DNA from: Cyclobacteriaceae bacterium
GTDB lineage: Bacteria > Bacteroidota > Bacteroidia > Cytophagales > Cyclobacteriaceae
Assembly: GCA_003565295.1 (NCBI GenBank)
Contig: PXCO01000040.1
Location: 1 to 64,000, forward strand
DNA length: 64,000 nucleotides
Reading direction: 5' to 3'
Within the stretch, counting starts at the first letter, position 1. Every line of letters starts with the position of its first letter. Below are positions 1-26,007 of this stretch, piece by piece. The notes under the pieces were generated by a model. That model was not told the origin of the DNA, searched no databases, and saw nothing but the letters and a program-made list of their open reading frames with translations. A program made the translations under genes and the position numbers.

Positions 1-1767
1 AAGGAGCCTGTGCACCATCATGTCCGGATAGCGCCGTATGGGGGAGGTGAAATGGGTGTAATGTTTAAAGGCTAGACCAAAATGTAACTTGGGCTCGGTG
101 GTATATTTGGCTTTCGCCATGCTGCGTATGGCCAGTTGTTCCAGCACATTCTGTTCAGGCTTGCCCTCTATTTCTTCCATGAGTTGGTTGAGGGAGTTGG
201 AAACCGTTTTTTCATCGGCTACTTTGACCTCATGCCCGAATTTTCTGGCAAAATTGGCAAAGGTATTCAGCTTTTCCAGATCTGGGTAATCGTGGATCCT
301 GTACACAAAGGTGCTTTTCCCCTTGAATTTATTGAAAATAAATTCGGCAACTGTACGGTTGGCAAGCAACATAAACTCCTCTATGAGCTTATGCACATCC
401 TTACGTTCCTTGATGATCAGCCCGAGAGGGGTGCCATCTTCCCCAAGTTTAAATTTTACTTCTAAGGTTTCAAAATTGATCGCCCCTTTTTTGAACCGGG
501 TCTGCCTCAGGTTTTTTGCAATTCTGTTGAGAAGGTTGAGCTCGGCATGATAATCCCCCTCGCCCTTATCCATGTTTTCCTGAGCTTCCTCATAGGCAAA
601 ACGCCTATCGGAATGGATAATCGTCCTCCCTATCCAAAACTCCTGCACATTACCCGCTTCATCCATTTCGAATACGCAGGAAAAGGTGAGTTTGTCCTCG
701 TTGGGCCGAAGGGAACAAAGGCCATTGCTCAAGCGCTCGGGCAGCATGGGGATGGTCCTGTCCACCAGGTAAACAGAGGTAGCCCTTTCATAAGCCTCCT
801 TTTCCAAAAGGCTACCCGGCTTCACATAGTGGGTCACGTCTGCAATGTGAACCCCAATCTCATGTAGGCCATTTTCGAGTTTTCTATAACTTATGGCATC
901 ATCAAAGTCCTTGGCATCAGCGGGATCTATGGTAAAGGTAGGGATGCCCCTGAAATCCCGCCTTTCTTTTACGGCTTTCTCTTCGATTTTTTCGCGAATC
1001 TGCTCCGCTTCCTCCACGGCATCCTCCGGATACCCAAAGGGTAGGCCAAATTCCGCCATTATAGAGTGGATTTCCACCTCATGGTCGCCGGCATCCCCCA
1101 AAACCCGGACTACTTTACCCGTGGGGCTTTTGTCCTGTTCATTCCATTCCGTGATTTTCACCACTACCTTTTGGTTGTGCTGGGCGCCTATTAGGTCCGG
1201 CTTTCTGACAAAGATGTCATGATGCATTTTTTTGAAGTCCGGTACCACAAATGCAAATCGTGGGGAAATTTCCACCCTGCCCACAAATTCGTCCCTGAGC
1301 CTTTGAAGGATTTCAAGTACCTTGCCTTCTCTTCTACCATTTTTAGACCGGGAAGGCGTGATCATTACCCGTACGAGGTCTCCGTCAAGGGCATTTTTAA
1401 GATTGGATTCTTTTATCAGTATGTCATTTTCCGATTTTTCCTGCCCTTTGGGAATGATAAAGGCAAACCTTGGATTGACAAAATCTACCTCTCCCTCCAC
1501 GAATTCCGGAGTGTTGGCACTACTGTATTCGTTTCTGGAGTTTTTTGCCACATCTCCAGTGGATATCAATTCAGTTAGGGCTTCCGGCACAGCTGCCTTG
1601 TCCTCTGCCTTTCTTAGGCCCAACTTTTTGATGATGTTTTTTTCTGAATAGGCCTCTCCATAATATTTGTCTAAAAATTGCCTAACTTGATGCAGCACAG
1701 AACCCGCAGTTTCACTACGTCTTTTACCGCTTTTATTGCTTCTTTTACTTCCTGATTTTCTTCCCAT
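1..1767 (-). CDS. rnr: Ribonuclease R (3' end beyond the window)
   Basis: This is a 3'-5' processive exoribonuclease of the RNase II/R family, which degrades structured RNA in the cytoplasm. The 589 visible codons begin with a basic stretch (MGRKSGSKRSNKSGKRR), followed by a winged-helix-like segment, two cold-shock-type OB segments with the repeated F-x-x-P-D/K pattern, and the RNB catalytic domain. The RNB signature is clear: DPADAKDFDDAIS carries the metal-binding aspartates, followed by GVHIADVTHYV. The last visible residues, SPIRRYPDMMVHRLL, are the conserved end of the catalytic core, so about the last 100-150 residues including the S1 domain lie outside the window. The start ATG at 1765-1767 is the first in frame and is followed by the basic leader. 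The reading frame is open to base 1. Confidence 0.96.
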   Translation of the reverse strand, partial: MGRKSGSKRSNKSGKRRSETAGSVLHQVRQFLDKYYGEAYSEKNIIKKLGLRKAEDKAAVPEALTELISTGDVAKNSRNEYSSANTPEFVEGEVDFVNPRFAFIIPKGQEKSENDILIKESNLKNALDGDLVRVMITPSRSKNGRREGKVLEILQRLRDEFVGRVEISPRFAFVVPDFKKMHHDIFVRKPDLIGAQHNQKVVVKITEWNEQDKSPTGKVVRVLGDAGDHEVEIHSIMAEFGLPFGYPEDAVEEAEQIREKIEEKAVKERRDFRGIPTFTIDPADAKDFDDAISYRKLENGLHEIGVHIADVTHYVKPGSLLEKEAYERATSVYLVDRTIPMLPERLSNGLCSLRPNEDKLTFSCVFEMDEAGNVQEFWIGRTIIHSDRRFAYEEAQENMDKGEGDYHAELNLLNRIAKNLRQTRFKKGAINFETLEVKFKLGEDGTPLGLIIKERKDVHKLIEEFMLLANRTVAEFIFNKFKGKSTFVYRIHDYPDLEKLNTFANFARKFGHEVKVADEKTVSNSLNQLMEEIEGKPEQNVLEQLAIRSMAKAKYTTEPKLHFGLAFKHYTHFTSPIRRYPDMMVHRLL

Positions 1768-1827
1768 AAAAGTTGATTGAATCCTTAAAGATAAAAAATA
1801 TTATCCAAATTACGAGAACCCCTATGG

Positions 1828-2565
1828 TTAGTCACCCGGGGTCTCATCCAGGTTGATGACTTCTAGTTCCAGATCCCCCGGTAATCCGTGGTAGGCCAGG
1901 TACAATCTTGCGGTCACTTCCACATCGCGGATACAATATTTCCGAATATCCGACAGGTTGTTTTCCACGTAGTAAGTGTGATTCACCAGGCTGCCATCTA
2001 TGTCTTCTTTGGAGCTGGGAATGTCAAATACCGCTGCAAGTAGCTCCAGCCTGGTGTAATATTTGTAATCCCCGAATTTCCACATTTCCATGGTGTCCAG
2101 ATGCCGGATTTCCCATGGTTTTTTCCCCGCCAATTGCAGTACCTCCGGCAATGCTATCCCATTGATCAGCATTCTTCTGCATATATATGGAAAATCAAAT
2201 TCCTTGCCATTATGTCCGCATAGCGTCCATGGTTTTTTCTCCAGTAATTCCCTAAACTCCCAAAGTGTATCGTGCTCTTCCTCTGAGGCAAAGGTTTTAG
2301 TGCGGTAGATTAGCCTGTTGTCATCTGTATCCATCATGAAAAAACCCACACCAATGCAAACCACTTTTCCAAATTCAGCGTGAATACCGGCCTTATCAAA
2401 AAACAATTCTTCAGCTGTCAACCCTTCTTGACCTTGCATGAATTTGGTCTTTCGGGCCCATTCTTCTTGCAGCCTTTCCGGCAGGTCTCCGAAAGATTGG
2501 GTGAGAGAGGCGGTTTCTATGTCCAAAAACAAGATGTCCTTTAAGTGTCCGAAAAAGTTGTTCAT
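1828..2565 (-). CDS. Predicted 3'-5' exonuclease related to the PolB proofreading domain
   Basis: This is a 245-residue DnaQ-like protein of the DEDDy type. ExoI is seen as FLDIETAS (D and E), ExoII as GHNGKEFDFPYI, and ExoIII as YCIRDVEVT, where Tyr and Asp have the YxxxD spacing. Members act on single-stranded DNA ends; the biological role in Bacteroidota is not settled. I chose the ATG at 2563-2565 (MNNFFGHLKD) rather than an in-frame ATG at 2599-2601, because the longer form would overlap the upstream gene by 29 bases and adds no recognisable sequence. It lies 7 bases downstream of the conserved hypothetical at 2573-2971 and the two are probably co-transcribed. Confidence 0.88.
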   Translation of the reverse strand: MNNFFGHLKDILFLDIETASLTQSFGDLPERLQEEWARKTKFMQGQEGLTAEELFFDKAGIHAEFGKVVCIGVGFFMMDTDDNRLIYRTKTFASEEEHDTLWEFRELLEKKPWTLCGHNGKEFDFPYICRRMLINGIALPEVLQLAGKKPWEIRHLDTMEMWKFGDYKYYTRLELLAAVFDIPSSKEDIDGSLVNHTYYVENNLSDIRKYCIRDVEVTARLYLAYHGLPGDLELEVINLDETPGD

Positions 2566-2572
2566 GCCGTGT

Positions 2573-2971
2573 TTAAGTATGTAAGACGCCGAATAATTCA
2601 AGCTCGGGTATGTAACTTATGTTTTCTTCCCCCATGCTCCCTTCCACAAATATAAATTTTTTGTCGAAAATTTGGCCCATTATGTAGTAGCTGACCCAAA
2701 ACTCATTGGTGAATTTGAAAAGTGCAGGGTCTATGGGTTCAATTCGTGCAAAACTGTTCTCTTCCAATTCCTCAATGAGGTGCCTGAGCACAGAGGTGTT
2801 ACGTTTTTCCCCTTCTACTTTTCCATATCCCTTAGAAGTAACCATGAGTGTTTGCAGGGAGATAAGGTTCTGGTTGATGATGTATACGCCCCAATTGTCT
2901 CCGTTTTCATCCTCCTTGGCAATGGCTAGTTTCACCCCGGTCACGGGATGGAAGGGAATATCCTTTTTCAT
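2573..2971 (-). CDS. Conserved hypothetical protein, start codon inside a repeat boundary
   Basis: This is a 132-residue soluble protein beginning MKKDIPFHPVTGVKLAIAKE. It has no signal peptide or membrane segment. The sequence resembles a Bacteroidota-wide family of about 130 residues, some members of which I recall being labelled phenylalanyl-tRNA synthetase alpha subunit; nothing here looks like a synthetase and I would not carry that name over. The function is unknown. An in-frame ATG at 3026-3028 would add 19 residues (ending NYKH), but these are encoded entirely by the tandem repeat, so the start at 2969-2971 is preferred. That ATG sits in the conserved box at the end of the repeat unit, so the repeat provides the translation initiation region. 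Confidence 0.8.
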   Translation of the reverse strand: MKKDIPFHPVTGVKLAIAKEDENGDNWGVYIINQNLISLQTLMVTSKGYGKVEGEKRNTSVLRHLIEELEENSFARIEPIDPALFKFTNEFWVSYYIMGQIFDKKFIFVEGSMGEENISYIPELELFGVLHT

Positions 2972-3280
2972 GTGTTTATAATTGATTTTTATTTGCCACA
3001 TGGAATCTCGCAAATGATAATCATCCATCCGTGCGTCGCTTGCGTCATGCTCGATTTCATCTGTTTATAATTGTCTTTTTATGGTCAGATGGAATCTCTC
3101 AACGATAATCATCCCCCCGTGTGTCGCTCTCGTCATGCCCTGACTGCCGTCAGGACAGGCTCGATTTCATGTGTTTGTATTTTTTTTTCAGCGGCCACAT
3201 GGAATCTCGCTATTTTAATCATCCCACTGTGTGACGTGCTCGTCATGCCCTGACTGCCGTCAGGACAGGCTCGATTTCAT
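2972..3280 (-). repeat. Tandem array of three repeat units ending at the start codon of the downstream gene
   Basis: Read on the minus strand, three units lie head to tail: 3280-3171 (110 bp), 3170-3061 (110 bp) and 3060-2972 (89 bp). Each unit begins with ATGAAATCGAGC and contains GAGATTCCA near its end. The two proximal junctions read ATTATAAACASATGAAA and the third is diverged to TACAAACACATG. The two 110-bp units carry a 22-bp hairpin module (CCTGAC and GTCAGG arms around a GGCA loop) that is missing from the 89-bp unit. The last junction is immediately followed by the ATG of the gene at 2971. No transposase and no CRISPR-like spacing are seen. The short interval 3281-3316 between the array and the end of lipB holds nothing recognisable. 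Confidence 0.9.
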
Positions 3281-3316
3281 CTGTTTTGCCGTTAATGGTT
3301 AGTTTTTTGACAATTT

Positions 3317-4087
3317 TCAATTTCCCATTTTCCATTCTCCATTCTCCACCAGTTGCATTTCAAACAACCCTGCCAGGTGAAATTTCACCCGGCCCTTTAC
3401 TTCTTCCTCATTCACCGGTTTCCCCAGTTCTATGTGCATGGAAGTTACGGCTTTGTCACTGATCCCGCAGGGGACGATGTTGCCAAAGTAGGAAAGGTCT
3501 GCATTGATGTTGAAGGCAAAACCGTGCATGGTCACCCATCGGCTAGACTTTACCCCCAGTGCGCAGATTTTCCTGGGGTACCTTTGGCTAACATGGTCAA
3601 GCCACACCCCGGTAAGCCCTTCAATCCTTCCTGCCTCCAGCCCATAATCGGCCAATGTCAGGATCACTGCTTCTTCTAAATAGCGTAGGTACTTATGGAT
3701 ATCTGTGAAAAAATTATCCAGATCCAAAATGGGATATCCCACCAATTGCCCGGGGCCATGATAAGTGATGTCCCCTCCGCGGTTGATTTTATAGTAGGTG
3801 GCACCTTTTTCGGCAAGCGCCACCTCGTTGAGTAATAGGTGAGAGGCCTCCCCGCTCTTGCCCAGGGTGTATACATGCGGATGTTCAACAAAGAGCAGGT
3901 AATTGTTGGTCAGCAGTTGTTGCTCAGGCGGTAATTTCCTGTTGCCGATCTTAGTGGCCACAGTTTGCCCAAAAAGCTCTTCCTGGTAATCCCAGGTTTC
4001 TTTGTAATCTTTTCGTCCTAAGTCGATGAAAATTACTTTTTTATTTTTAATTTGTTTCACCTTAAACCGTTTTATCGTATCCCTCAA
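3317..4087 (-). CDS. lipB: Octanoyl-[acyl-carrier-protein] protein N-octanoyltransferase
   Basis: LipB moves the octanoyl group from octanoyl-ACP to lipoyl domains, the first step of lipoate synthesis. The family signature RGGDITYHGPGQLVGYPI is present near residue 103. The catalytic Lys lies in CALGVKSSRWVTMHG and the catalytic Cys in NIVPCGISDKAVTSM. At 256 residues it is slightly longer than many LipB proteins because of a basic N-terminal lead (MRDTIKRFKVKQIKNKK). There is no better internal start before the conserved region. One obvious client, the E2 subunit of pyruvate dehydrogenase with two lipoyl domains, is encoded at 57088-58740. The gene diverges from the YraN-family gene at 4168. 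Confidence 0.96.
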   Translation of the reverse strand: MRDTIKRFKVKQIKNKKVIFIDLGRKDYKETWDYQEELFGQTVATKIGNRKLPPEQQLLTNNYLLFVEHPHVYTLGKSGEASHLLLNEVALAEKGATYYKINRGGDITYHGPGQLVGYPILDLDNFFTDIHKYLRYLEEAVILTLADYGLEAGRIEGLTGVWLDHVSQRYPRKICALGVKSSRWVTMHGFAFNINADLSYFGNIVPCGISDKAVTSMHIELGKPVNEEEVKGRVKFHLAGLFEMQLVENGEWKMGN

Positions 4088-4167
4088 AACAAGGCGTTAT
4101 CCGTCTTGGTTCTGAAACATTTTAATGGACGGTCAAAGCTAGTCTTTTTTCACAAAATTTTTAAACC

Positions 4168-4527
4168 ATGGCTTCACCTACACAGAACAAAGGCTATTTG
4201 GCCGAATCCCTGGCCAAGGAGTGGCTGGAGGGAAAGGGTTATATCTTTAAAACTTCCAATTACCGCTATAAGCACGCAGAGATTGACCTGATCATGCAGC
4301 ATAAGGGGGTATTGGTGTTTGTGGAGGTTAAATTCCGTAGTGGAGCGGGATATGGTTATGCGGAGGAATTCGTGGACTACCGCAAAAGACAACTGATTAT
4401 CCGCGCCGCAGACCACTATATACACGATACGGATTGGCATAGGGACATCCGCTTTGATATCGTGGGAGTTTACCAGGATAGGTCAGGCAGGATAGCTTTC
4501 AAGCATTTTGAGGATGCTTTCTATTGA
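4168..4527 (+). CDS. YraN/UPF0102 family endonuclease-fold protein
   Basis: This is a 119-residue protein with the compact PD-(D/E)xK nuclease core of the UPF0102 family: KGYLAESLAKEWLE at the N terminus, then AEIDLI (Asp) and VFVEVKFR (Glu and Lys). The length matches the family norm of about 115-130 residues. The family fold points to nucleic-acid cleavage or Holliday-junction processing, but the cellular role is poorly defined. It ends 3 bases from the convergent stop of the next gene, with no terminator between them. Confidence 0.93.
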   Translation: MASPTQNKGYLAESLAKEWLEGKGYIFKTSNYRYKHAEIDLIMQHKGVLVFVEVKFRSGAGYGYAEEFVDYRKRQLIIRAADHYIHDTDWHRDIRFDIVGVYQDRSGRIAFKHFEDAFY

Positions 4528-16935: not shown

Positions 16936-16962
16936 AAAAAAAGAGTGACCCTTCGGTCACTC
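16936..16962 (-). terminator. Intrinsic terminator of the exported hydrolase gene
   Basis: On the minus strand GAGTGACC, loop GAAG, GGTCACTC is followed by TTTTTTT. The 8-bp stem is perfect and includes the TGA stop codon of the gene at 16957. Confidence 0.85.
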
Positions 16963-17910
16963 CCCAGCTTTTGCAATGAGAAATTCATTCACATCTAGCC
17001 AATGCATAAATGCCTCAAACCAACGGTTACTGGTCCGGTTAGGGTTGCCCAGGCCAAAGCCATGTCCTCCATTTTGGTATAGGTGGAATTCCACAGGGAT
17101 ACCTGCATTGTACCAGGATTCGACTACACCGATCTGACCGTTGAAAAGAAAATCGTCTGTGGCGATCACATTGAACATGGGAGGTGCATTTTCTGGAACT
17201 TCCACTTGACCCATGCCCCCGTAAATAGGACCGATAAAGGCCAATTTCATAGTCTCAGAGTTAAGGGTGGAGTGCATGGTGAGCCCGGCACCTGCCGAAA
17301 ATCCGATCATGCCAATTCTGTCAATGTCTACCCCCCATTCCTCAGCCCGATCTATGATCATGGTATAAGCAGCCTCAGCATCGGCCAGCTGGTTGCTCAG
17401 GTCCCTTTGTGGTGGACGGGGAGGGGTTTCACCTTCTTCAGATGCTGAGGAAGGTGCCGCAGTTGGGCGGGGTCTGTTCATCCAATCCGCAAATTCCTCC
17501 AGTGATTCTGCGGTAGGGTGAAGCCTGTATTTGAGTACAAATGCGGCAATTCCCTGCTCCGCAAGTGCCTCTGCTACCCTCCAGCCTTCATTGCTCATGG
17601 ACAGCCACCTGAAGCCACCGCCTGGCGCCACGATTACTGCCGTACCATTTGCTTTTTCCGGATCGGGTAGGAAAGGGTTCAGTGTTGCTTCCGTGATATT
17701 CCGTGCCATGGGGACGCCCCATTGTCTAAACCAGCTCTCTGAAGCAGGTTGGTTTTCCACATCTCCCGTGCCTAGAGGTATGGCATTTGATTCATCTGGT
17801 GGGGTATCGAGGGGATAGATCGTTCCGTCTTGTGCCATAGCCGGAATAGCAATGGCAAAAAGAGCTATTAAAATGGATCTTTTGACTGAGTTTAGAAGTT
17901 TGCAGTTCAT
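16957..17910 (-). CDS. Exported alpha/beta hydrolase, acetyl-xylan-esterase-like
   Basis: This is a 317-residue protein with a signal peptide (KRSILIALFAIAIPAMAQ). The alpha/beta-hydrolase features are an oxyanion segment VIVAPGGGFRWLS, nucleophile elbow GMIGFSAGAGLT (Ser), the acid in VIATDDFLF and the catalytic His in NGGHGFGLG. A Pro/Ser/Glu-rich insert lies near residues 145-170. It resembles periplasmic esterases that deacetylate plant polysaccharides, and its neighbour is a decayed SusC/SusD-type locus. A link to glycan breakdown is inference. Confidence 0.87.
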   Translation of the reverse strand: MNCKLLNSVKRSILIALFAIAIPAMAQDGTIYPLDTPPDESNAIPLGTGDVENQPASESWFRQWGVPMARNITEATLNPFLPDPEKANGTAVIVAPGGGFRWLSMSNEGWRVAEALAEQGIAAFVLKYRLHPTAESLEEFADWMNRPRPTAAPSSASEEGETPPRPPQRDLSNQLADAEAAYTMIIDRAEEWGVDIDRIGMIGFSAGAGLTMHSTLNSETMKLAFIGPIYGGMGQVEVPENAPPMFNVIATDDFLFNGQIGVVESWYNAGIPVEFHLYQNGGHGFGLGNPNRTSNRWFEAFMHWLDVNEFLIAKAGE

Positions 17911-18084
17911 GGTAATGGGTTTAATAGGTTAAAGGTTAAAAATAGGGATTCTTAGCGAATTTATTAAAACAAATGGCTATACTAAGGTTTTTTTGAAAAA
18001 TTTTTGTTTCAACATCCAGTGTTCAAGGATGGTTAATTTGGCCATTGGAATGATAAGAGCAAATCAACCTGTGTTTCCCCTATG

Positions 18085-18120
18085 AAAAAAATCCCCCACT
18101 CCTCAGAAGGGAGTGGGGGA
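18085..18120 (-). terminator. Strong terminator downstream of the fossil SusC/SusD locus
   Basis: TCCCCCACTCC (18092-18102) pairs perfectly with GGAGTGGGGGA (18110-18120). On the minus strand it is followed by a T-rich run (from A-rich 18085-18091). It lies 30 bases after the stop of the remnant at 18151 and is in the position expected for the terminator of the original gene. Confidence 0.85.
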
Positions 18121-18150
18121 TAGAGGTTACTATCAATGGATTGTTGCTGT

Positions 18151-18342
18151 TTAATACCCCGGGTTCTGCCTAGTTCGCTGAATAGCCAGAGGGATGGTTT
18201 GGTTGATTTGCTTGAAGGATAAATTAGATTGCCTGCTCACTTCTTCTAAAGCTGATTCTAAATCAACGGCATTACCGGTGAATTCCAGTGGCAGCCTCAG
18301 ATCCAGATGTTGTTCGTAGGCGAATTTAAAGTTTATCGGCAA
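18151..18342 (-). pseudogene. Fused remnant: STN-like N-terminal piece joined to a SusD-like C terminus
   Basis: The 63-codon frame contains LPLEFTGNAVDLESALEEVS followed by RQSNLSFKQINQTI, the pattern of the secretin/TonB N-terminal (STN) domain found at the start of SusC-type transporters. It ends TRQNPGY, which looks like the usual C-terminal tail of SusD/RagB lipoproteins. The simplest reading is that almost all of a susC gene and almost all of a susD gene were deleted, joining the two ends. There is no signal peptide in this frame. The family assignments rest on short matches. Confidence 0.55.
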
Positions 18343-18541
18343 TCTCTGAGATTTTTAAATGTTCAAACCTGCTCATTAAAAACACCTCTTTCTCCTTAGC
18401 GGGAAGCTTGTCTACCGCAATCAGTATCTGTTCGAAAAGTTCTTCAAATGCCAGGATTTCACCTTTTTCAAAGAGGTGTCCAAAGGCTTTTTTATCACCT
18501 TTTTTTATGCTTTCCAGGAGCTGTTTTTCTGCCGAATTCAT
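18326..18541 (-). pseudogene. Internally deleted ECF sigma factor remnant
   Basis: The 71-codon frame starts MNSAEKQLLESIKKGDKKAF, typical of the N terminus of Bacteroidota ECF sigma factors. It then passes directly into ILIAVDKLPAKEKEVFLMSR and HLKISEIADKL, typical of region 4 (helix-turn-helix). Region 2, which should be about 70-80 residues between them, is missing. Region 4 itself stops early, at a frame change into the STN-like remnant. In PULs such a sigma gene often lies upstream of an anti-sigma gene and susC/susD, so this fits a collapsed locus. Confidence 0.65.
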
Positions 18542-18813: not shown

Positions 18814-20565
18814 CTAATGATTATGTTGAGAATGATCTTCATGCCCTGGATCCTTCATCACCTTTTCACCGGGTCTGTATGTTTCCTTTACCTCTCCACA
18901 AGTAAGCATTTCATCCCCCCAGTAAGGGTTTTTGATTTGTTTCTCTTCGCTGAGCCAATATGCCCCCTTGTTGTCGAAAGCCATGGGGCAAAACTGCCGG
19001 TATAATGTAATGCCTTCCACCCCGAAAAGCTCCACCGCCTCTATCATATGGTCGGAAAGATCCTCAAAGTGGACTCGTTGGTCAGCTATGTCATTTTCTT
19101 TTTCCATATCTTCTAAAACCACAGGCAAACGGCTTATAATTTCCCGCCATTTTTCCTTTGCAGCCGACTCAAGTTGATCGCTCTTAACCTCATCTAATTT
19201 CCCTAGCAATGGGGATATGGCAGAACGAACCTGTTGTACATCGCTTTCCACAAAGGCATCTTTTAGCTGAAGGTAGGCCTTTATTACACCAGTGAATTGC
19301 TTCCGGAAAGCATCAGTTACTTCCATGCTTTTAACCTCTGGCCGCAGCATCATACTATAATTGCCGCTCAATTGAGCTGCGGCATCTATGGAAAACGTAC
19401 CTTGACTCACTAATTCTTCTCCCTCTTCTATTCCCGATAGGATTAGGTAATTTTCACCCAAACTACTTCCCAGCTCCACTTCCCTCATTTCGAAGGCAGG
19501 GGCGTCACTTGTGCCCACTTGGGCATAGACCACCGATCTAGGCCCCGTCCATAAGACGGCGGATTTGGGTATCACCAAACTACCGTTACCACTCATTTTG
19601 GCATTGACCTTACCCTGTACGATCATACCGGGTTTCAGTTTGCCTCCCGGGTTGGCTATTTCAGACCTTATTGGGATGGTTCGGGTAGATTCCTCCAGAA
19701 CTGGGTGTATAAATTCTACCCGGGTAGAAAATTCTTCTCCAGACAAGGCCGACACCTTAAAGGTAATAGGGTCTCCAGTCCTTATATGCTGAATGTGCCT
19801 TTCATAGGCATCTAGCACTATCCAGACCCGGGAGAGGTCCACAAGATCAAACATACTGCTGCCCCTACTTACAAAATCACCTTTGGCCACATTTCTTGCC
19901 CAAACCACACCATCAATATCAGAGATGATATCAAAGCTGGACTGTACTCTCCCGGAAGCCTCTATTGCTGAAATCTGGTCTTCGTTTATTTTCCAGGAAC
20001 GCAGCTTTTCCTTGGCAGCTTCATATAAACCCGGCTGCCTTTCTTTGAGCTTTGCCGCCTCCAGTAGTTCCTTTTGGGAGCTTATCAGTTCAGGGGAATA
20101 AATGCTGGCCAGTTTTTCTCCTTTTTTAATCTCCTGCCCGGTAAAGTTGACATAAAGCTCCTCAATTCTGCCCGGATAATTGGCAGTGAGGCTCTTTATC
20201 CTTTGCTCGTTGATTTTAATTTTTCCATTGAGGGAGATGTTGCCTTCAGCTTTTTCACTCTTCACACGTATGGTGGATACATTGGCAAGGGCCACTGCCT
20301 CAGGGTTCATTTCCAGAATATACGGGCTGCTTTCGCCATTTTTCAATTGGCTGGCCGGGATGAGTTCCATTCCGCATATGGGACAGTCCCCAGGTTCATC
20401 CTGTCTTATTTGGGGATGCATGGAGCAGGTGTAGGTAATACTGCCCTCTTCATGGTGTTCATGCCCATTATCAGCTGATTTTTCGTCCCCGCGGACAAAC
20501 CACCCTAAAAGAAAGCCTGCGATAAGCAGCAAGCCAATTCCTAAAATTTTTTTTCGTGTATTCAT
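18814..20565 (-). CDS. CusB-like periplasmic adaptor of a copper/silver RND efflux pump
   Basis: This is a 583-residue membrane-fusion protein. It has an N-terminal signal anchor (ILGIGLLLIAGFLLGWFV), then a heavy-metal-binding segment YTCSMHPQIRQDEPGDCPIC, and the hairpin/lipoyl/barrel core of the HlyD/CusB family at about residues 85-410. A C-terminal helical DUF3347-type domain follows, with FCPMAFDNKGAYWL and MLTCGEV, both rich in possible Cu ligands. It ends in a His-rich tail (DPGHEDHSQHNH). The adaptor links the inner-membrane pump to the outer channel. It is the last gene of the operon formed with the TolC-like and CusA-like genes. Confidence 0.93.
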   Translation of the reverse strand: MNTRKKILGIGLLLIAGFLLGWFVRGDEKSADNGHEHHEEGSITYTCSMHPQIRQDEPGDCPICGMELIPASQLKNGESSPYILEMNPEAVALANVSTIRVKSEKAEGNISLNGKIKINEQRIKSLTANYPGRIEELYVNFTGQEIKKGEKLASIYSPELISSQKELLEAAKLKERQPGLYEAAKEKLRSWKINEDQISAIEASGRVQSSFDIISDIDGVVWARNVAKGDFVSRGSSMFDLVDLSRVWIVLDAYERHIQHIRTGDPITFKVSALSGEEFSTRVEFIHPVLEESTRTIPIRSEIANPGGKLKPGMIVQGKVNAKMSGNGSLVIPKSAVLWTGPRSVVYAQVGTSDAPAFEMREVELGSSLGENYLILSGIEEGEELVSQGTFSIDAAAQLSGNYSMMLRPEVKSMEVTDAFRKQFTGVIKAYLQLKDAFVESDVQQVRSAISPLLGKLDEVKSDQLESAAKEKWREIISRLPVVLEDMEKENDIADQRVHFEDLSDHMIEAVELFGVEGITLYRQFCPMAFDNKGAYWLSEEKQIKNPYWGDEMLTCGEVKETYRPGEKVMKDPGHEDHSQHNH

Positions 20566-20608: not shown

Positions 20609-22096
20609 TTAAATACCTACCAATAACTCCCAACGGGCCTGTGCTCTTAGGGAGTCGATGGTAGCATCAATCTTGCTCAACCTGAAATCCAATAGTTCCC
20701 GTTGTAGCGCAATGAGTTCTTCAAAACTGCCCTCGTCATTCGCATAAGCTACAATTATCAGTTCCATGGTTTTTTCCAGTAGTTCAACCTGTTCTTCCAG
20801 GAGGCTAGCCCTTCTTAATGCATCATTGATGGAATTGATCACCTCTGACATTTCGGTTTTCAATTCGTTTTTCAGGTTATCTTGGGAATGGGTATTGGCA
20901 GATTGCATATGCCTTGCTTCGGTCACCATGCTTTTGTATTTTTTTCTGGATAAGGGTAAGCTAAGGGAAAGCATGGGCATCAACATGTTGCCACCCATAC
21001 CGGCGGGCATATATTCCATGGTTCCGCTGCCACCGGGTATTCCCATTTCCGGTCTGGAATTTAGTAACATGTAATTGAGGCCAAGTCCTATCATAGGCTT
21101 TCCTGCCAGCTCGGCCAAATTTGTCTTAGATTCCAGGGCTTTAGCTTCTTTGTTTAGCATGGAGAGCATGGGGTTATGATCCCATATGCTGTCTAGCATC
21201 AATTCCTCCATATCTATGGGAGGCATTGCTTCTTCCCATTCCAATATTATCGTGTCTCCCTCAGAAAGTCCACTCAGTTGTACAAATCTTTGTATCAATG
21301 GGGCTTTATCTTGCTGTAGTTGGTCCAATTGACTTTGTAAACCTTTTATCTGGATTTGGAGCCTGAGCACATCGGTAAGCCTGGTTGTTTTCCTGCCTTC
21401 ACTCCTAACCCCCATATCCGAAGGTGCTTCTGTGGACTTGGATGGCTGCGGACTGCCCTCCATTTGCATGGCATTTGAAGTAGGCAGTTGTCTTGAAAGC
21501 GTTGGGGTGCTTACCGCCTCCATGGCATTTCCCATGGCTCCTCCGGAGTCTCCCCCTTGAAATCGAACCAAACTCAACGCTTCCAGGGTTTCCAACAATT
21601 TCAAGTTGGATGCTGTGACATCTATGGTATGCTGAAGCAGTAATAGATCATAGTAGGTGTTTTTGACATCAAAAAGGATCTGGTTCCTTTGCTGCCGAAA
21701 TGCTTCATAACTTGCCTCTGCCATATATGTGGCTTCTGCTTTCTCTGCCTTTAAGGTGCCAAACCAAGGGAACATTTGCATAAGTGAGACTTCTGCTACC
21801 TGATTCCCCATGAGTAACCGCATGGGACGTAGAAAATACCCAATGCCCAATTCGGCATCGGGGAGTTGTCCCATTTGGTCAACCTTGGCGAGTTGAGCTT
21901 TATAGGCATCAAAGGAACTTATTAGCTTTGGGTTGTTTTCCGCGGCCAACTCAAGGTAGACATCGATTGCATTTTCTTGTGCCATGCTTTTTGCAAAAAG
22001 CAGAAAAATGAAAAGTAGCATCAGCCCAGTTCTAACTGTTGGAGAGCCCTTTTTATGCCATCTTGCCTTAAGGGTGTTTTCTTTACTTTTTTCCAT
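20609..22096 (-). CDS. TolC-family outer-membrane channel of the copper efflux operon
   Basis: This is a 495-residue outer-membrane efflux protein with an N-terminal signal (LMLLFIFLLFAKSMAQ). It has two long TolC-type helical repeats, with LRLQIQIKGLQSQLDQLQQD in the first half and the second ending near residue 490. Compared with ordinary TolC proteins it has a Met/Ser/Pro-rich insert at about residues 180-240 and a second Met-rich segment (MEYMPAGMGGNMLMPML), which may be metal-sensing or metal-handling. It sits between the CusA-like and CusB-like genes with gaps of 14 and 43 bases. Confidence 0.88.
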   Translation of the reverse strand: MEKSKENTLKARWHKKGSPTVRTGLMLLFIFLLFAKSMAQENAIDVYLELAAENNPKLISSFDAYKAQLAKVDQMGQLPDAELGIGYFLRPMRLLMGNQVAEVSLMQMFPWFGTLKAEKAEATYMAEASYEAFRQQRNQILFDVKNTYYDLLLLQHTIDVTASNLKLLETLEALSLVRFQGGDSGGAMGNAMEAVSTPTLSRQLPTSNAMQMEGSPQPSKSTEAPSDMGVRSEGRKTTRLTDVLRLQIQIKGLQSQLDQLQQDKAPLIQRFVQLSGLSEGDTIILEWEEAMPPIDMEELMLDSIWDHNPMLSMLNKEAKALESKTNLAELAGKPMIGLGLNYMLLNSRPEMGIPGGSGTMEYMPAGMGGNMLMPMLSLSLPLSRKKYKSMVTEARHMQSANTHSQDNLKNELKTEMSEVINSINDALRRASLLEEQVELLEKTMELIIVAYANDEGSFEELIALQRELLDFRLSKIDATIDSLRAQARWELLVGI

Positions 22097-22110: not shown

Positions 22111-25100
22111 TTAGGCTTCCAGGGAGTTTTCTGATTTATTTGAGTTCCGAAATCGGATAAGTTTATACCTGCCGTACAAAACTGGTACAATAAACAGGGA
22201 AATAATGGCCACACTCATACCCCCAAAGGCCGGAATGGCCATAGGGATCATGATGTCTGAGCCTCTGCCCGTACTGGTAAGTATGGGCAGAAGGGCAATC
22301 AAAGTAGTCGCCGTGGTCATCAAGCATGGTCTTACCCGCTTCACCCCGGCAGCTAATACGGCTTTTTTGATGCCATCCTCGTCATCGGGTTTGAACTTTT
22401 CGAAACTTTGCTTGAGGTAGGTACCCATCACCACCCCATCATCTGTGGCTATGCCGAATAAGGCGATAAACCCCACCCAAACCGCCACGCTGAGATTGAA
22501 GGTTTGCATTTGAAACAAGGATCTGAGGTGAGTGCCAAAAAGGGAAAAATCCAGGAACCACTCTTGACCGTATAGCCAAAGCATGAGAAATCCTCCCGAA
22601 AATGCCAAAGCAATGGAGGTAAATATCATTAAGCTAAGGGCCGTGGACTTGAACTGTAGGTATAGGATCAAGAATATGATGGCAAGGCTCAAAGGTATGA
22701 CGAGGCTAAGCCTTTTCTCAGCTCGGACTTGATTCTCATAACTTCCGGAGAATGCGTAGGACACGCCGGAAGGAACCTCCAATTCTCCAGAGGAGATTTT
22801 TTGCTGAAGGTGCTTTTTGGCTTCTTCCACCGCAGTAACCTCCGCATAACCCTGTCGCTTGTCCAGCATGATATATCCGACCAAAAAGGACTCCTCTCCC
22901 CTGATCATGGTGGGGCCGGACCTAAAGGAGATCTCTGCGATTTGTCCTAAAGGCAACTGTATGCCATCTGGTGTATTGATAAGGATGTCTTTTAATTTTT
23001 CGGGGTCGTCCCTGTATTCACGGGCATACCTGGCCCGTATGTTGTACCTTTCCCTACCTTCCACCGTGGTGCTTAAGTTCATGCCTCCCACAGCCACCTC
23101 AATCATTTCCTGAACATCGGCAATATTGAGCCCATATCTAGCCATCATACCCCTGTCCAGATCAATCTCCAGATAAGGTTTACCCAGGGACCGGTCGGCA
23201 AATATGGCTTGTTCCTTAAGTGCGGGCACCTCTTTCAGTAACGCTTCCAGTCGTAAACTGAAATCCTCGATGGTCTTTAGGTCCGGCCCGTAGACTTTGA
23301 TCCCCATAGGTGCCCGCATCCCTGTTTGCAACATCACCAACCTGGTTTCAATAGGTTGTAATTTGGGAGCAGAGGTTACCCCGGGTAGGTTGGAGGTGCG
23401 GCGTTGGATCTCCTCCCAGATATCATCAGGGCTTTTGATATGATCCCTCCACTGCCTATAATAACTCCCCCTTTTTGGGTCGGGCACAAGGTGATCCCCT
23501 GGCTTACTCAAAAAACTCTTGTGCTTGGAAGAAGGTATGGGATTTCCGTTTTCGTCCAGTAGTTCATCAGATGAGCGATCATACCAGTAGGAGCTCCCAT
23601 TTTTTTCAAGAAGAAAATGACCTTTTTCGTTGGTTTTAAACCTGACTTTTTCCCCCGCCTCATTTTGGAGATATTGGGTTTTGTAATTAATGATGTTCTC
23701 ATACATGGTCAGAGGTGCAGGATCTAGTGGACTTTCGGCTCTGCCTGCTTTTCCTACCACCATTTCCACCTCGGGAATGGCCTGAACCAGCATGTCCAAC
23801 TGCCTGAGGGTACGGTGGTTGGCTTCCACGCCGGAATGGGGCATGGAGGTGGGCATAAGCAAAAAAGACCCTTCATCCAAGGCGGGCATAAACTCTTTAC
23901 CCATACCAGGAAAAGTATTTGCCATTCCTTCCCAGAGGGCATTTTTGCGGAGGTTGAGCCCCAGTTTTTCGACGCCATCTGCCGCAAAGCCAAAGATCCG
24001 GGGGAAGCCTAGCCATGAATTTAAACCTATAAAAAGAACCAGAAGCGGAATGACCAAAAAAGTGAGGGGATTATTCAGGCACCAGGTCAGCAACCTTTCG
24101 TAATAGCGGATGAAAATGGAGAAAAATCCCAATATCAATCCTAATATAAGCAGAATGAAAACCCCATTCAGCGTAAGGGATTGTTCCAGACCCAAAGGTC
24201 TCCATTCCTGGGCCAGTAAGTAAGCCAGTGCCAATACCACGATGAGCATGCTATATAGGTGCTTCCTTTTGCCTACCCAGAGAATATGTGGATAATAGAG
24301 CTGGGTAAGGTTCAATATTCCAAAAGCCAATAGGACTACCCCGGCCCAAGGGGAGAACCAAATCAAAATCGCTCCCAGTAAGGTCAACAGTAAATTCGCA
24401 ATACCTCTATATTTATCAGATGAAATCCTAAGTCCAAATACCCAATGTGCAAGTGCAGGAATAAAGAGTAATGTGATGATCAGCGCGGCAATTAATGCGA
24501 AGGTTTTGGTGTAAGCGAGTGGTCCAAAAAGTTTTCCCTCAGCAGCTTGAAGAGTGAATACCGGTAAAAAGCTGATAATGGTGGTGAGGACTGCGGTGAG
24601 GATAGCACCCGAAACCTCCGAACTTGCCTCTAAAATGGTATCTTTCAAAGGCCGTTTGCTGGTATTGTTTTCCAGATGCCTAAGGATATTTTCATTGAGG
24701 ATAATTCCCAGGTCCACCATCGTACCAATGGCAATGGCTATCCCAGATAGTGCAACGATATTGGCGTCCACTCCTACCTGTTTCATAAGAATAAAACACA
24801 TGAGAACAGCAATGGGGAGTAGGGAGGTGATTAAAATGGAAGCCCTAAGGTTAAATACCATTACCACGATTACAATAATCGTGACCAGCACTTGCAGGCT
24901 AATGGCCTCATTGAGCGTGTTCAAAGTTTCCTGGATTAGACCAGACCGGTCATAAAAGGGGACAATGGTTACCTTTGAGACCCTTCCATCCTCCAATGTC
25001 TTACTGGGCAATCCGGTGGAGATCTCTTCGATTTTATCTTTTACCCCCTGAATGACCTGTAAAGGATTATCCCCATATCGGGCCACCACTACCCCACCTA

Positions 25101-26007
25101 CTACTTCAGCCCCTCCTTTATCCAGTATTGCTCTTTCGGCTCTGCTTGCAGGCCCAAGGCTTACTTTGGCTACATCTTTGACATATAAAGGTGTGGTGCC
25201 GGTGTTTTTTACTACGGCAGAAGCGATGTCTTCTATGTCCTTTACATATCCCAATCCTCTTACCAGGTATTCTACCTGATTGATTTCCATGGTATTGGCA
25301 CCAATTTCTTGGTTGGATTGCCTTACGGCATCCATTACCTGCATCAGGCTAATGCCATGCCCTTTCATGGCCACGGGGTCCAAATCCACCTGGTATTCAC
25401 GGATATGCCCGCCAATGCTGGCGACTTCTGCCACCCCCTTGGCACTGGACAGCCCATATTTGACATAAAAATCTTGTATGGAGCGTAATTCATGAAGGTC
25501 CCATCCTCCTACAGGGTTCCCTTGCTCGTCGCGGCCCTCCAGCGTATAGAAATAAACCTGTCCCAGGCCTGTGGCATCTGGCCCTAATTTGGGCTGGACC
25601 CCTTCTGGAAGTAGGCCAGAAGGTAGGGCATTGAGCTTTTCTAGCACTCTGGACCTGCTCCAGTAAAACTCCACATCCTCTTCAAAAATGATATAGATGG
25701 AGGAGAAGCCAAACATAGAGGTGCTTCGTATGGACCTCACCCCCGGCAGACCCAAAAGAGAGGTGGTGAGGGGGTAGGTGATTTGGTCCTCCACATCTTG
25801 TGGGGACCTACCCATCCATTCCGAAAATACGATCTGCTGGTTTTCACCAATATCGGGAATGGCATCTACAGGCACCGGGTCATTGGGGAGCAGGCCCCTC
25901 TCCCAATCGAATGGAGCGACCGCTATTCCCCAAAGAATAAAGAGGGAAAGAAGGGTAAACGTAATTACCTTGTTTTCAAGGAAAAACCTAATGATATGAT
26001 GTAGCAT
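22111..26007 (-). CDS. CusA/CzcA-family heavy-metal RND efflux pump
   Basis: This is a 1298-residue inner-membrane proton-driven pump of the HME-RND class. Near the N terminus it has FTLLSLFILWGIAVAPFDWE, and the early porter segment includes PVDAIPDIGENQQIVFSEW. TM4 carries AIAIGTMVDLGIILNENILR, with the acidic residues used in proton relay. It is about 250 residues longer than E. coli CusA. The extra length lies in an insertion with additional hydrophobic helices around residues 545-640 and a polar insertion around residues 770-860 (KTNEKGHFLLEKNGSSYWYD). By its Cys/Met-rich partners copper or silver is the likely substrate, but this is inferred from context. Confidence 0.93.
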   Translation of the reverse strand: MLHHIIRFFLENKVITFTLLSLFILWGIAVAPFDWERGLLPNDPVPVDAIPDIGENQQIVFSEWMGRSPQDVEDQITYPLTTSLLGLPGVRSIRSTSMFGFSSIYIIFEEDVEFYWSRSRVLEKLNALPSGLLPEGVQPKLGPDATGLGQVYFYTLEGRDEQGNPVGGWDLHELRSIQDFYVKYGLSSAKGVAEVASIGGHIREYQVDLDPVAMKGHGISLMQVMDAVRQSNQEIGANTMEINQVEYLVRGLGYVKDIEDIASAVVKNTGTTPLYVKDVAKVSLGPASRAERAILDKGGAEVVGGVVVARYGDNPLQVIQGVKDKIEEISTGLPSKTLEDGRVSKVTIVPFYDRSGLIQETLNTLNEAISLQVLVTIIVIVVMVFNLRASILITSLLPIAVLMCFILMKQVGVDANIVALSGIAIAIGTMVDLGIILNENILRHLENNTSKRPLKDTILEASSEVSGAILTAVLTTIISFLPVFTLQAAEGKLFGPLAYTKTFALIAALIITLLFIPALAHWVFGLRISSDKYRGIANLLLTLLGAILIWFSPWAGVVLLAFGILNLTQLYYPHILWVGKRKHLYSMLIVVLALAYLLAQEWRPLGLEQSLTLNGVFILLILGLILGFFSIFIRYYERLLTWCLNNPLTFLVIPLLVLFIGLNSWLGFPRIFGFAADGVEKLGLNLRKNALWEGMANTFPGMGKEFMPALDEGSFLLMPTSMPHSGVEANHRTLRQLDMLVQAIPEVEMVVGKAGRAESPLDPAPLTMYENIINYKTQYLQNEAGEKVRFKTNEKGHFLLEKNGSSYWYDRSSDELLDENGNPIPSSKHKSFLSKPGDHLVPDPKRGSYYRQWRDHIKSPDDIWEEIQRRTSNLPGVTSAPKLQPIETRLVMLQTGMRAPMGIKVYGPDLKTIEDFSLRLEALLKEVPALKEQAIFADRSLGKPYLEIDLDRGMMARYGLNIADVQEMIEVAVGGMNLSTTVEGRERYNIRARYAREYRDDPEKLKDILINTPDGIQLPLGQIAEISFRSGPTMIRGEESFLVGYIMLDKRQGYAEVTAVEEAKKHLQQKISSGELEVPSGVSYAFSGSYENQVRAEKRLSLVIPLSLAIIFLILYLQFKSTALSLMIFTSIALAFSGGFLMLWLYGQEWFLDFSLFGTHLRSLFQMQTFNLSVAVWVGFIALFGIATDDGVVMGTYLKQSFEKFKPDDEDGIKKAVLAAGVKRVRPCLMTTATTLIALLPILTSTGRGSDIMIPMAIPAFGGMSVAIISLFIVPVLYGRYKLIRFRNSNKSENSLEA

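Follow-up and report, generated by a model that had tools for sequence, protein, structure and literature searches.

The window, a 64,000-nucleotide stretch of contig PXCO01000040.1 from a Cyclobacteriaceae bacterium, carries on its minus strand between 18,541 and 18,085 a row of gene pieces in the order ECF sigma factor start, part of sigma region 4, SusC N-terminal piece, SusD tail and terminator. They fall in two short minus-strand frames, 18541-18326 (71 amino acids [aa]) and 18342-18151 (63 aa), which overlap by 17 bases. The only known start site for the 63-aa frame is a TTG within the 71-aa frame. The row lies between intact flanking genes, and the features are given below with the evidence for each; "sister" denotes the genome of Pleomorphovibrio marinus SW125.

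16957..17910, minus strand: intact flank, exported alpha/beta hydrolase (esterase-like); Abhydrolase_3, E = 5.7e-12
18085..18121, minus strand: strong intrinsic terminator, 12-pair stem (18121-18091) and T run
18151..18195, minus strand: last 14 codons of SusD and stop, IPLAIQRTRQNPGY-stop; end pattern, SusD tails, tail alignment
18193..18331, minus strand: SusC N-terminus piece (STN-like), without signal peptide; protein and DNA match to sister SusC, joint
18332..18467, minus strand: ECF sigma region 4, first part only; Sigma70_r4_2, sister match, jump-alignment joint
18467..18541, minus strand: ECF sigma factor gene start, start codon and first ~25 codons; DNA match to sister
18814..20565, minus strand: intact flank, CusB-like efflux adaptor; HlyD_D23, E = 2.4e-67; syntenic in sister
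20609-22096, minus strand: CusC-like gene, upstream on the same strand as the CusB-like gene; syntenic in sister
22111-26007, minus strand: CusA-like gene, likewise upstream on that strand; ACR_tran; syntenic in sister

Identity of the gene pieces

A sequence-only reading of this DNA had proposed the five pieces, in this order and on one strand, and profile and sister matches confirm the arrangement. Residues 38-71 of the 71-aa frame match Sigma70_r4_2 above the Pfam cut-off (E = 2.9e-8), and the frame also gives a weak match to an ECF sigma factor start. Its residues 1-28 and 24-71 correspond to two separated stretches of a single 196-aa ECF frame in the sister. DNA across 18573-18465, which covers the start piece, shares 76% identity with the start region in the sister (blastn, E = 1.3e-16); the region-4 piece is 60% identical to the sister ECF (E = 1.1e-13). 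The two are fused in frame, and the stop codon (18326-18328) lies just past the next joint. The assignment to region 4 holds for a piece that is itself truncated, with 36 of the 54 profile positions in the frame.

Residues 4-52 of the 63-aa frame are 69% identical to the N-terminus of the sister's 1,116-aa SusC (E = 6.7e-16; 74% DNA identity, E = 1.3e-16 by blastn). The piece had been described as STN-like. From these comparisons the label "SusC N-terminus" is solid; "STN" is loose, because the Pfam STN match of the frame is weak (E = 0.029, under the cut-off) and a Pfam profile search of the sister SusC returned no STN match at E ≤ 0.001.

The SusD tail is fused in frame with the SusC piece, about 46 codons of SusC and 14 of SusD remaining. 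The 63-aa frame ends in QNPGY, the usual SusD end within the window genome. That genome contains 13 instances of a DNA pattern encoding QNPG[YF]-stop and 0 of the reversed pattern. Each of the 12 other cases follows at least 59 open codons; a SusD_RagB match covers the end of 11, and the twelfth lies 94 bp beyond one. When the window tail and terminator were aligned with the sister's 19.9 kb, the best alignment was the SusD end, with a score that 0 of 2,000 shuffles reached. These controls uphold the NPGY-type SusD tail named from sequence alone.

The intact locus of the sister genome and the deletion joints

The best matches to both short frames were found in Pleomorphovibrio marinus SW125 (G001), the sole other genome of the genus in the compared set, in a search of 59 genomes that included the window's own. 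All lie on one contig, at most 8 kb from the hydrolase ortholog, which is 82% identical and sits downstream of the sister SusD. The sister locus (L068, a 19.9-kb stretch; L076 is the same place, with 100% identical proteins) has the order CusA, CusC, CusB, ECF, FecR, SusC, SusD, terminator, hydrolase, on the same strand as in the window. Its Pfam domains are sigma regions 2 and 4, FecR and FecR_C, Plug and CarbopepD_reg_2, and SusD-like_3 and SusD_RagB. The place where the sequence-only reading had proposed to look, flanked by the exported hydrolase and the efflux operon, thus holds an intact homologous locus in this relative. The terminator is at a matching distance, its stem lying 29 bp after the SusD stop in the window and 30 bp in the sister. 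The span between ECF start and SusD stop is 6,788 bp in the sister and 391 bp in the window, in agreement with the proposed loss of several kilobases by internal deletion.

Genes, order, strand, neighbours and terminator match a SusC/SusD uptake locus under ECF sigma/FecR control, and the pieces are 60-69% identical to it in protein. Compared with the sister locus, the window lacks ~94% of the length, is entirely without FecR and presumably retains no working gene: neither SusC nor SusD is full length, ECF region 2 is absent and region 4 is partial. The further proposal that each gene's ends had been left behind applies to three genes (ECF, SusC and SusD) and fails for FecR, which is gone from the locus. 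The pieces keep their original order and strand, and the products would be destroyed.

The joints were placed by spliced-type jump alignment to L068. At joint 1, window 18468/18467 corresponds to L068 8944/9182, with 237 bp lost in frame. At joint 2, window 18332/18331 corresponds to L068 9317/10979, and the 1,661 bp lost took the rest of the ECF gene, all of FecR and the SusC start. Joints 1 and 2 were stable across three jump costs and joint 3 was unstable: the alignment placed the tail inside SusC at a cost of 10 or 13, and at the SusD end only at 17, the highest. Placement at the SusD end rests on the comparison with SusD tails, the tail alignment with shuffles and the comparison of ortholog tails. 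Many SusD tails of the group read PIP..QI(D)R...QNPGY; those of both intact orthologs (the sister's and that of another genus, described below) read IPQSQIDRTxNEFxQNPGY, and the window tail, 15 bp shorter than both, reads IPLAIQRTRQNPGY. Joint 3 lies at Thr-Ile of the SusC piece. CCATT occurs at both of its ends in the sister, and if this shared sequence is the joint, ~4,484 bp were lost. The lengths then balance (6,788 - 237 - 1,661 - 4,484 - 15 = 391 bp, as observed).

We judge joint positions good to about 10-20 bp because DNA identity is 74-76%. The longest direct repeats within 10 bp of joints 1, 2 and 3 are 6, 5 and 8 bp, with the joints blurred by ~25% divergence; the shares of random positions reaching these lengths are 0.10, 0.32 and 0.008, so that the repeats at joints 1 and 2 do not exceed chance. 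The 8-bp repeat at joint 3 does not predict the window sequence. Two of the three large joints and the 15-bp loss keep the frame; at least two of three in frame would occur by chance in 7/27 of cases.

Relatives, copies and substitution pattern

Of 390 family genomes, drawn evenly from a larger group, 24 matched the short SusC/SusD frame (E ≤ 1e-6); the sigma frame was compared in the 59 genomes. In all 23 matching genomes besides the window's, the match lies inside a SusC frame of 1,087-1,211 aa, and the short frame as such was found only in the window genome. Conservation of the short SusC/SusD frame, which would have spoken for small genes in their own right, was thus not seen in the 390 genomes, and conserved small genes are rejected on this set. 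In a genome of another genus (G232), SusC and SusD orthologs are each 77% identical to those of the sister. The long form is therefore ancestral. Neither the Cus nor the hydrolase queries matched within 13 kb around that SusC/SusD ortholog. The ECF and FecR genes there (L246, G232:C1:5678500-5691500) are 47% and 39% identical to the sister's, a much greater divergence than that of SusC and SusD.

Proteins 70-82% identical to the hydrolase (16957-17910) occur in many Bacteroidota, flavobacterial and saprospiral records included, usually without an adjoining uptake locus. Membership of the hydrolase in the uptake locus is unsupported. Among 88 hydrolase loci (80 and 8 from two collections, with some genomes in both), the four-gene set occurs at only one place, L068/L076; six have only a distant SusC-like match and 80 have no query gene beyond the hydrolase.

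Relocation of an intact copy within the window genome was considered, and none was found: the next best match to the SusC piece is 35% identical and the best SusD is 45% identical (24 of 49 candidates scored). Searches with the SusD-end pattern, SusD_RagB and STN found no other orphan fossil in that genome; of its 12 STN matches, only the window's sits in a frame shorter than 300 aa. The window genome and the sister differ at other loci, given 31 SusD_RagB matches in the former and 42 in the latter, and our searches saw no such remnants there.

Over 116 codons the pieces are 67% identical to the sister in amino acids, with a pN/pS of 0.213 (bootstrap 0.154-0.292). This falls within the span of the neighbours (hydrolase 0.14, CusA 0.17, CusB 0.27, CusC 0.29) and of other ortholog pairs of the two genomes (ECF stretches 0.018-0.362, 4 pairs; SusC stretches 0.031-0.256, 5 pairs; 4 of 13 calibration rows were set aside, 2 as repeated genes and 2 as SusC rows seemingly misaligned or non-orthologous). 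Of the outgroup-conserved sites, the window alone is changed at 4, the sister alone at 5 and neither at 37. Against neighbours, ortholog pairs and outgroup-conserved sites alike, no excess amino-acid change was seen in the pieces. The two short frames contain no stop codon in 134 codons, and in a simple simulation the chance of this is down to 0.05 once 0.2 neutral substitutions per site have accrued. Between the two genomes, synonymous sites are close to saturated. Most of the divergence would then predate the collapse, which was either late or left pieces that are constrained, because frames free of stops allow only ~0.2 substitutions per site while synonymous sites are nearly saturated. Selection keeping the pieces is unlikely.

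Probable collapse of a SusC/SusD-type uptake locus

The pieces are very probably the remnant of a SusC/SusD-type uptake locus (ECF, FecR, SusC, SusD) that collapsed by internal deletions. The ancestor of the genus would have carried the intact ECF-FecR-SusC-SusD locus at the position it has in the sister. Loss of function presumably came first and removal of the locus afterwards. Three internal deletions (237, ~1,661 and ~4,484 bp) and the small 15-bp loss would have removed ~94%, leaving the sigma gene start, part of region 4, the SusC piece, the SusD tail and the terminator. Ordinary deletion, through drift or selection against useless expression, may be the cause, and the collapse was probably late on the branch of the window species. 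No working product is expected: region 2 and the end of region 4 are missing from what is left of the sigma factor, and the SusC piece has neither signal peptide nor plug nor barrel.

A point against collapse is that there is no sign of neutral decay, with no stops, no excess change and joints that keep the frame. The absence of decay fits a late collapse, but it also fits selection on the remnants. The frames could then be small functional genes under selection, a 71-aa sigma-derived peptide and a 63-aa SusC/SusD fusion. Both are open, the substitution pattern is of the purifying type, change is no faster than in the functional sister and two large joints are in frame. A late collapse would give the same pattern without selection, none of the relatives among the 390 family genomes has the short SusC/SusD frame, the missing domains named above leave both products defective, and the second frame has for a start only the TTG inside the first; we regard small genes as very unlikely. 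Most improbable is an assembly artefact, by which several kilobases that exist in the bacterium would have dropped out of the draft genome (403 contigs). The contamination estimate is 4.39% and the genome has many similar SusC/SusD genes, features that favour an artefact. Three separate joints with pieces of 130-140 bp between them, together with the additional 15 bp missing from the tail, would be hard to obtain by misassembly, and the assembly has no good SusD or SusC match elsewhere.

A variant compatible with collapse by deletion is that a single complex event, rather than the stepwise loss proposed from sequence alone, made all three joints. With no stops in 134 codons, at most ~0.2 neutral substitutions per site have accrued since inactivation in the simple simulation, so that three independent large deletions would have had to follow one another quickly. 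Nothing indicates the timing of the joints, and rapid selective removal of young pseudogenes (PMC2916853, from excerpts) would serve equally; a single event is in our view unlikely. A broader suggestion, which we hold tentatively as a possibility, is that the four-gene locus was erased too fast for stops to appear, either by strong selection against a harmful, half-broken regulator/receptor system or by one complex event.

According to excerpts of Kuo and Ochman (2010; PMC2916853), Salmonella pseudogenes are lost at a higher rate while young than neutrality predicts, most of them (346 of 378) have one inactivating mutation, and just a small fraction have lost more than 20% of their length. Such rapid removal would, by analogy, account for large deletions without point mutations here. 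As far as the excerpts of these studies go, pseudogene remnants in Salmonella (PMC2916853) and Rickettsia (PMC2374718) likewise show deletional erosion with an intact syntenic copy in a sister. Unlike the Salmonella pseudogenes described there, the window's four-gene unit has lost 94% and its remaining letters are unspoilt. Among titles and abstract openings we found no report of a SusC/SusD locus reduced to gene ends.

The genus is represented by two genomes in the compared set, and the collapsed state is known from one draft genome; as a single case it leaves the general view unchanged. The uptake-locus remnant is a tidy, clear case of a known, ordinary process. It is also an unusually legible snapshot of locus loss, because position, order and terminator survive and the deletions can be sized against the sister. 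With other strains to compare, it could reveal whether deletions proceed faster than point mutations once an outer-membrane system under sigma/anti-sigma control breaks.
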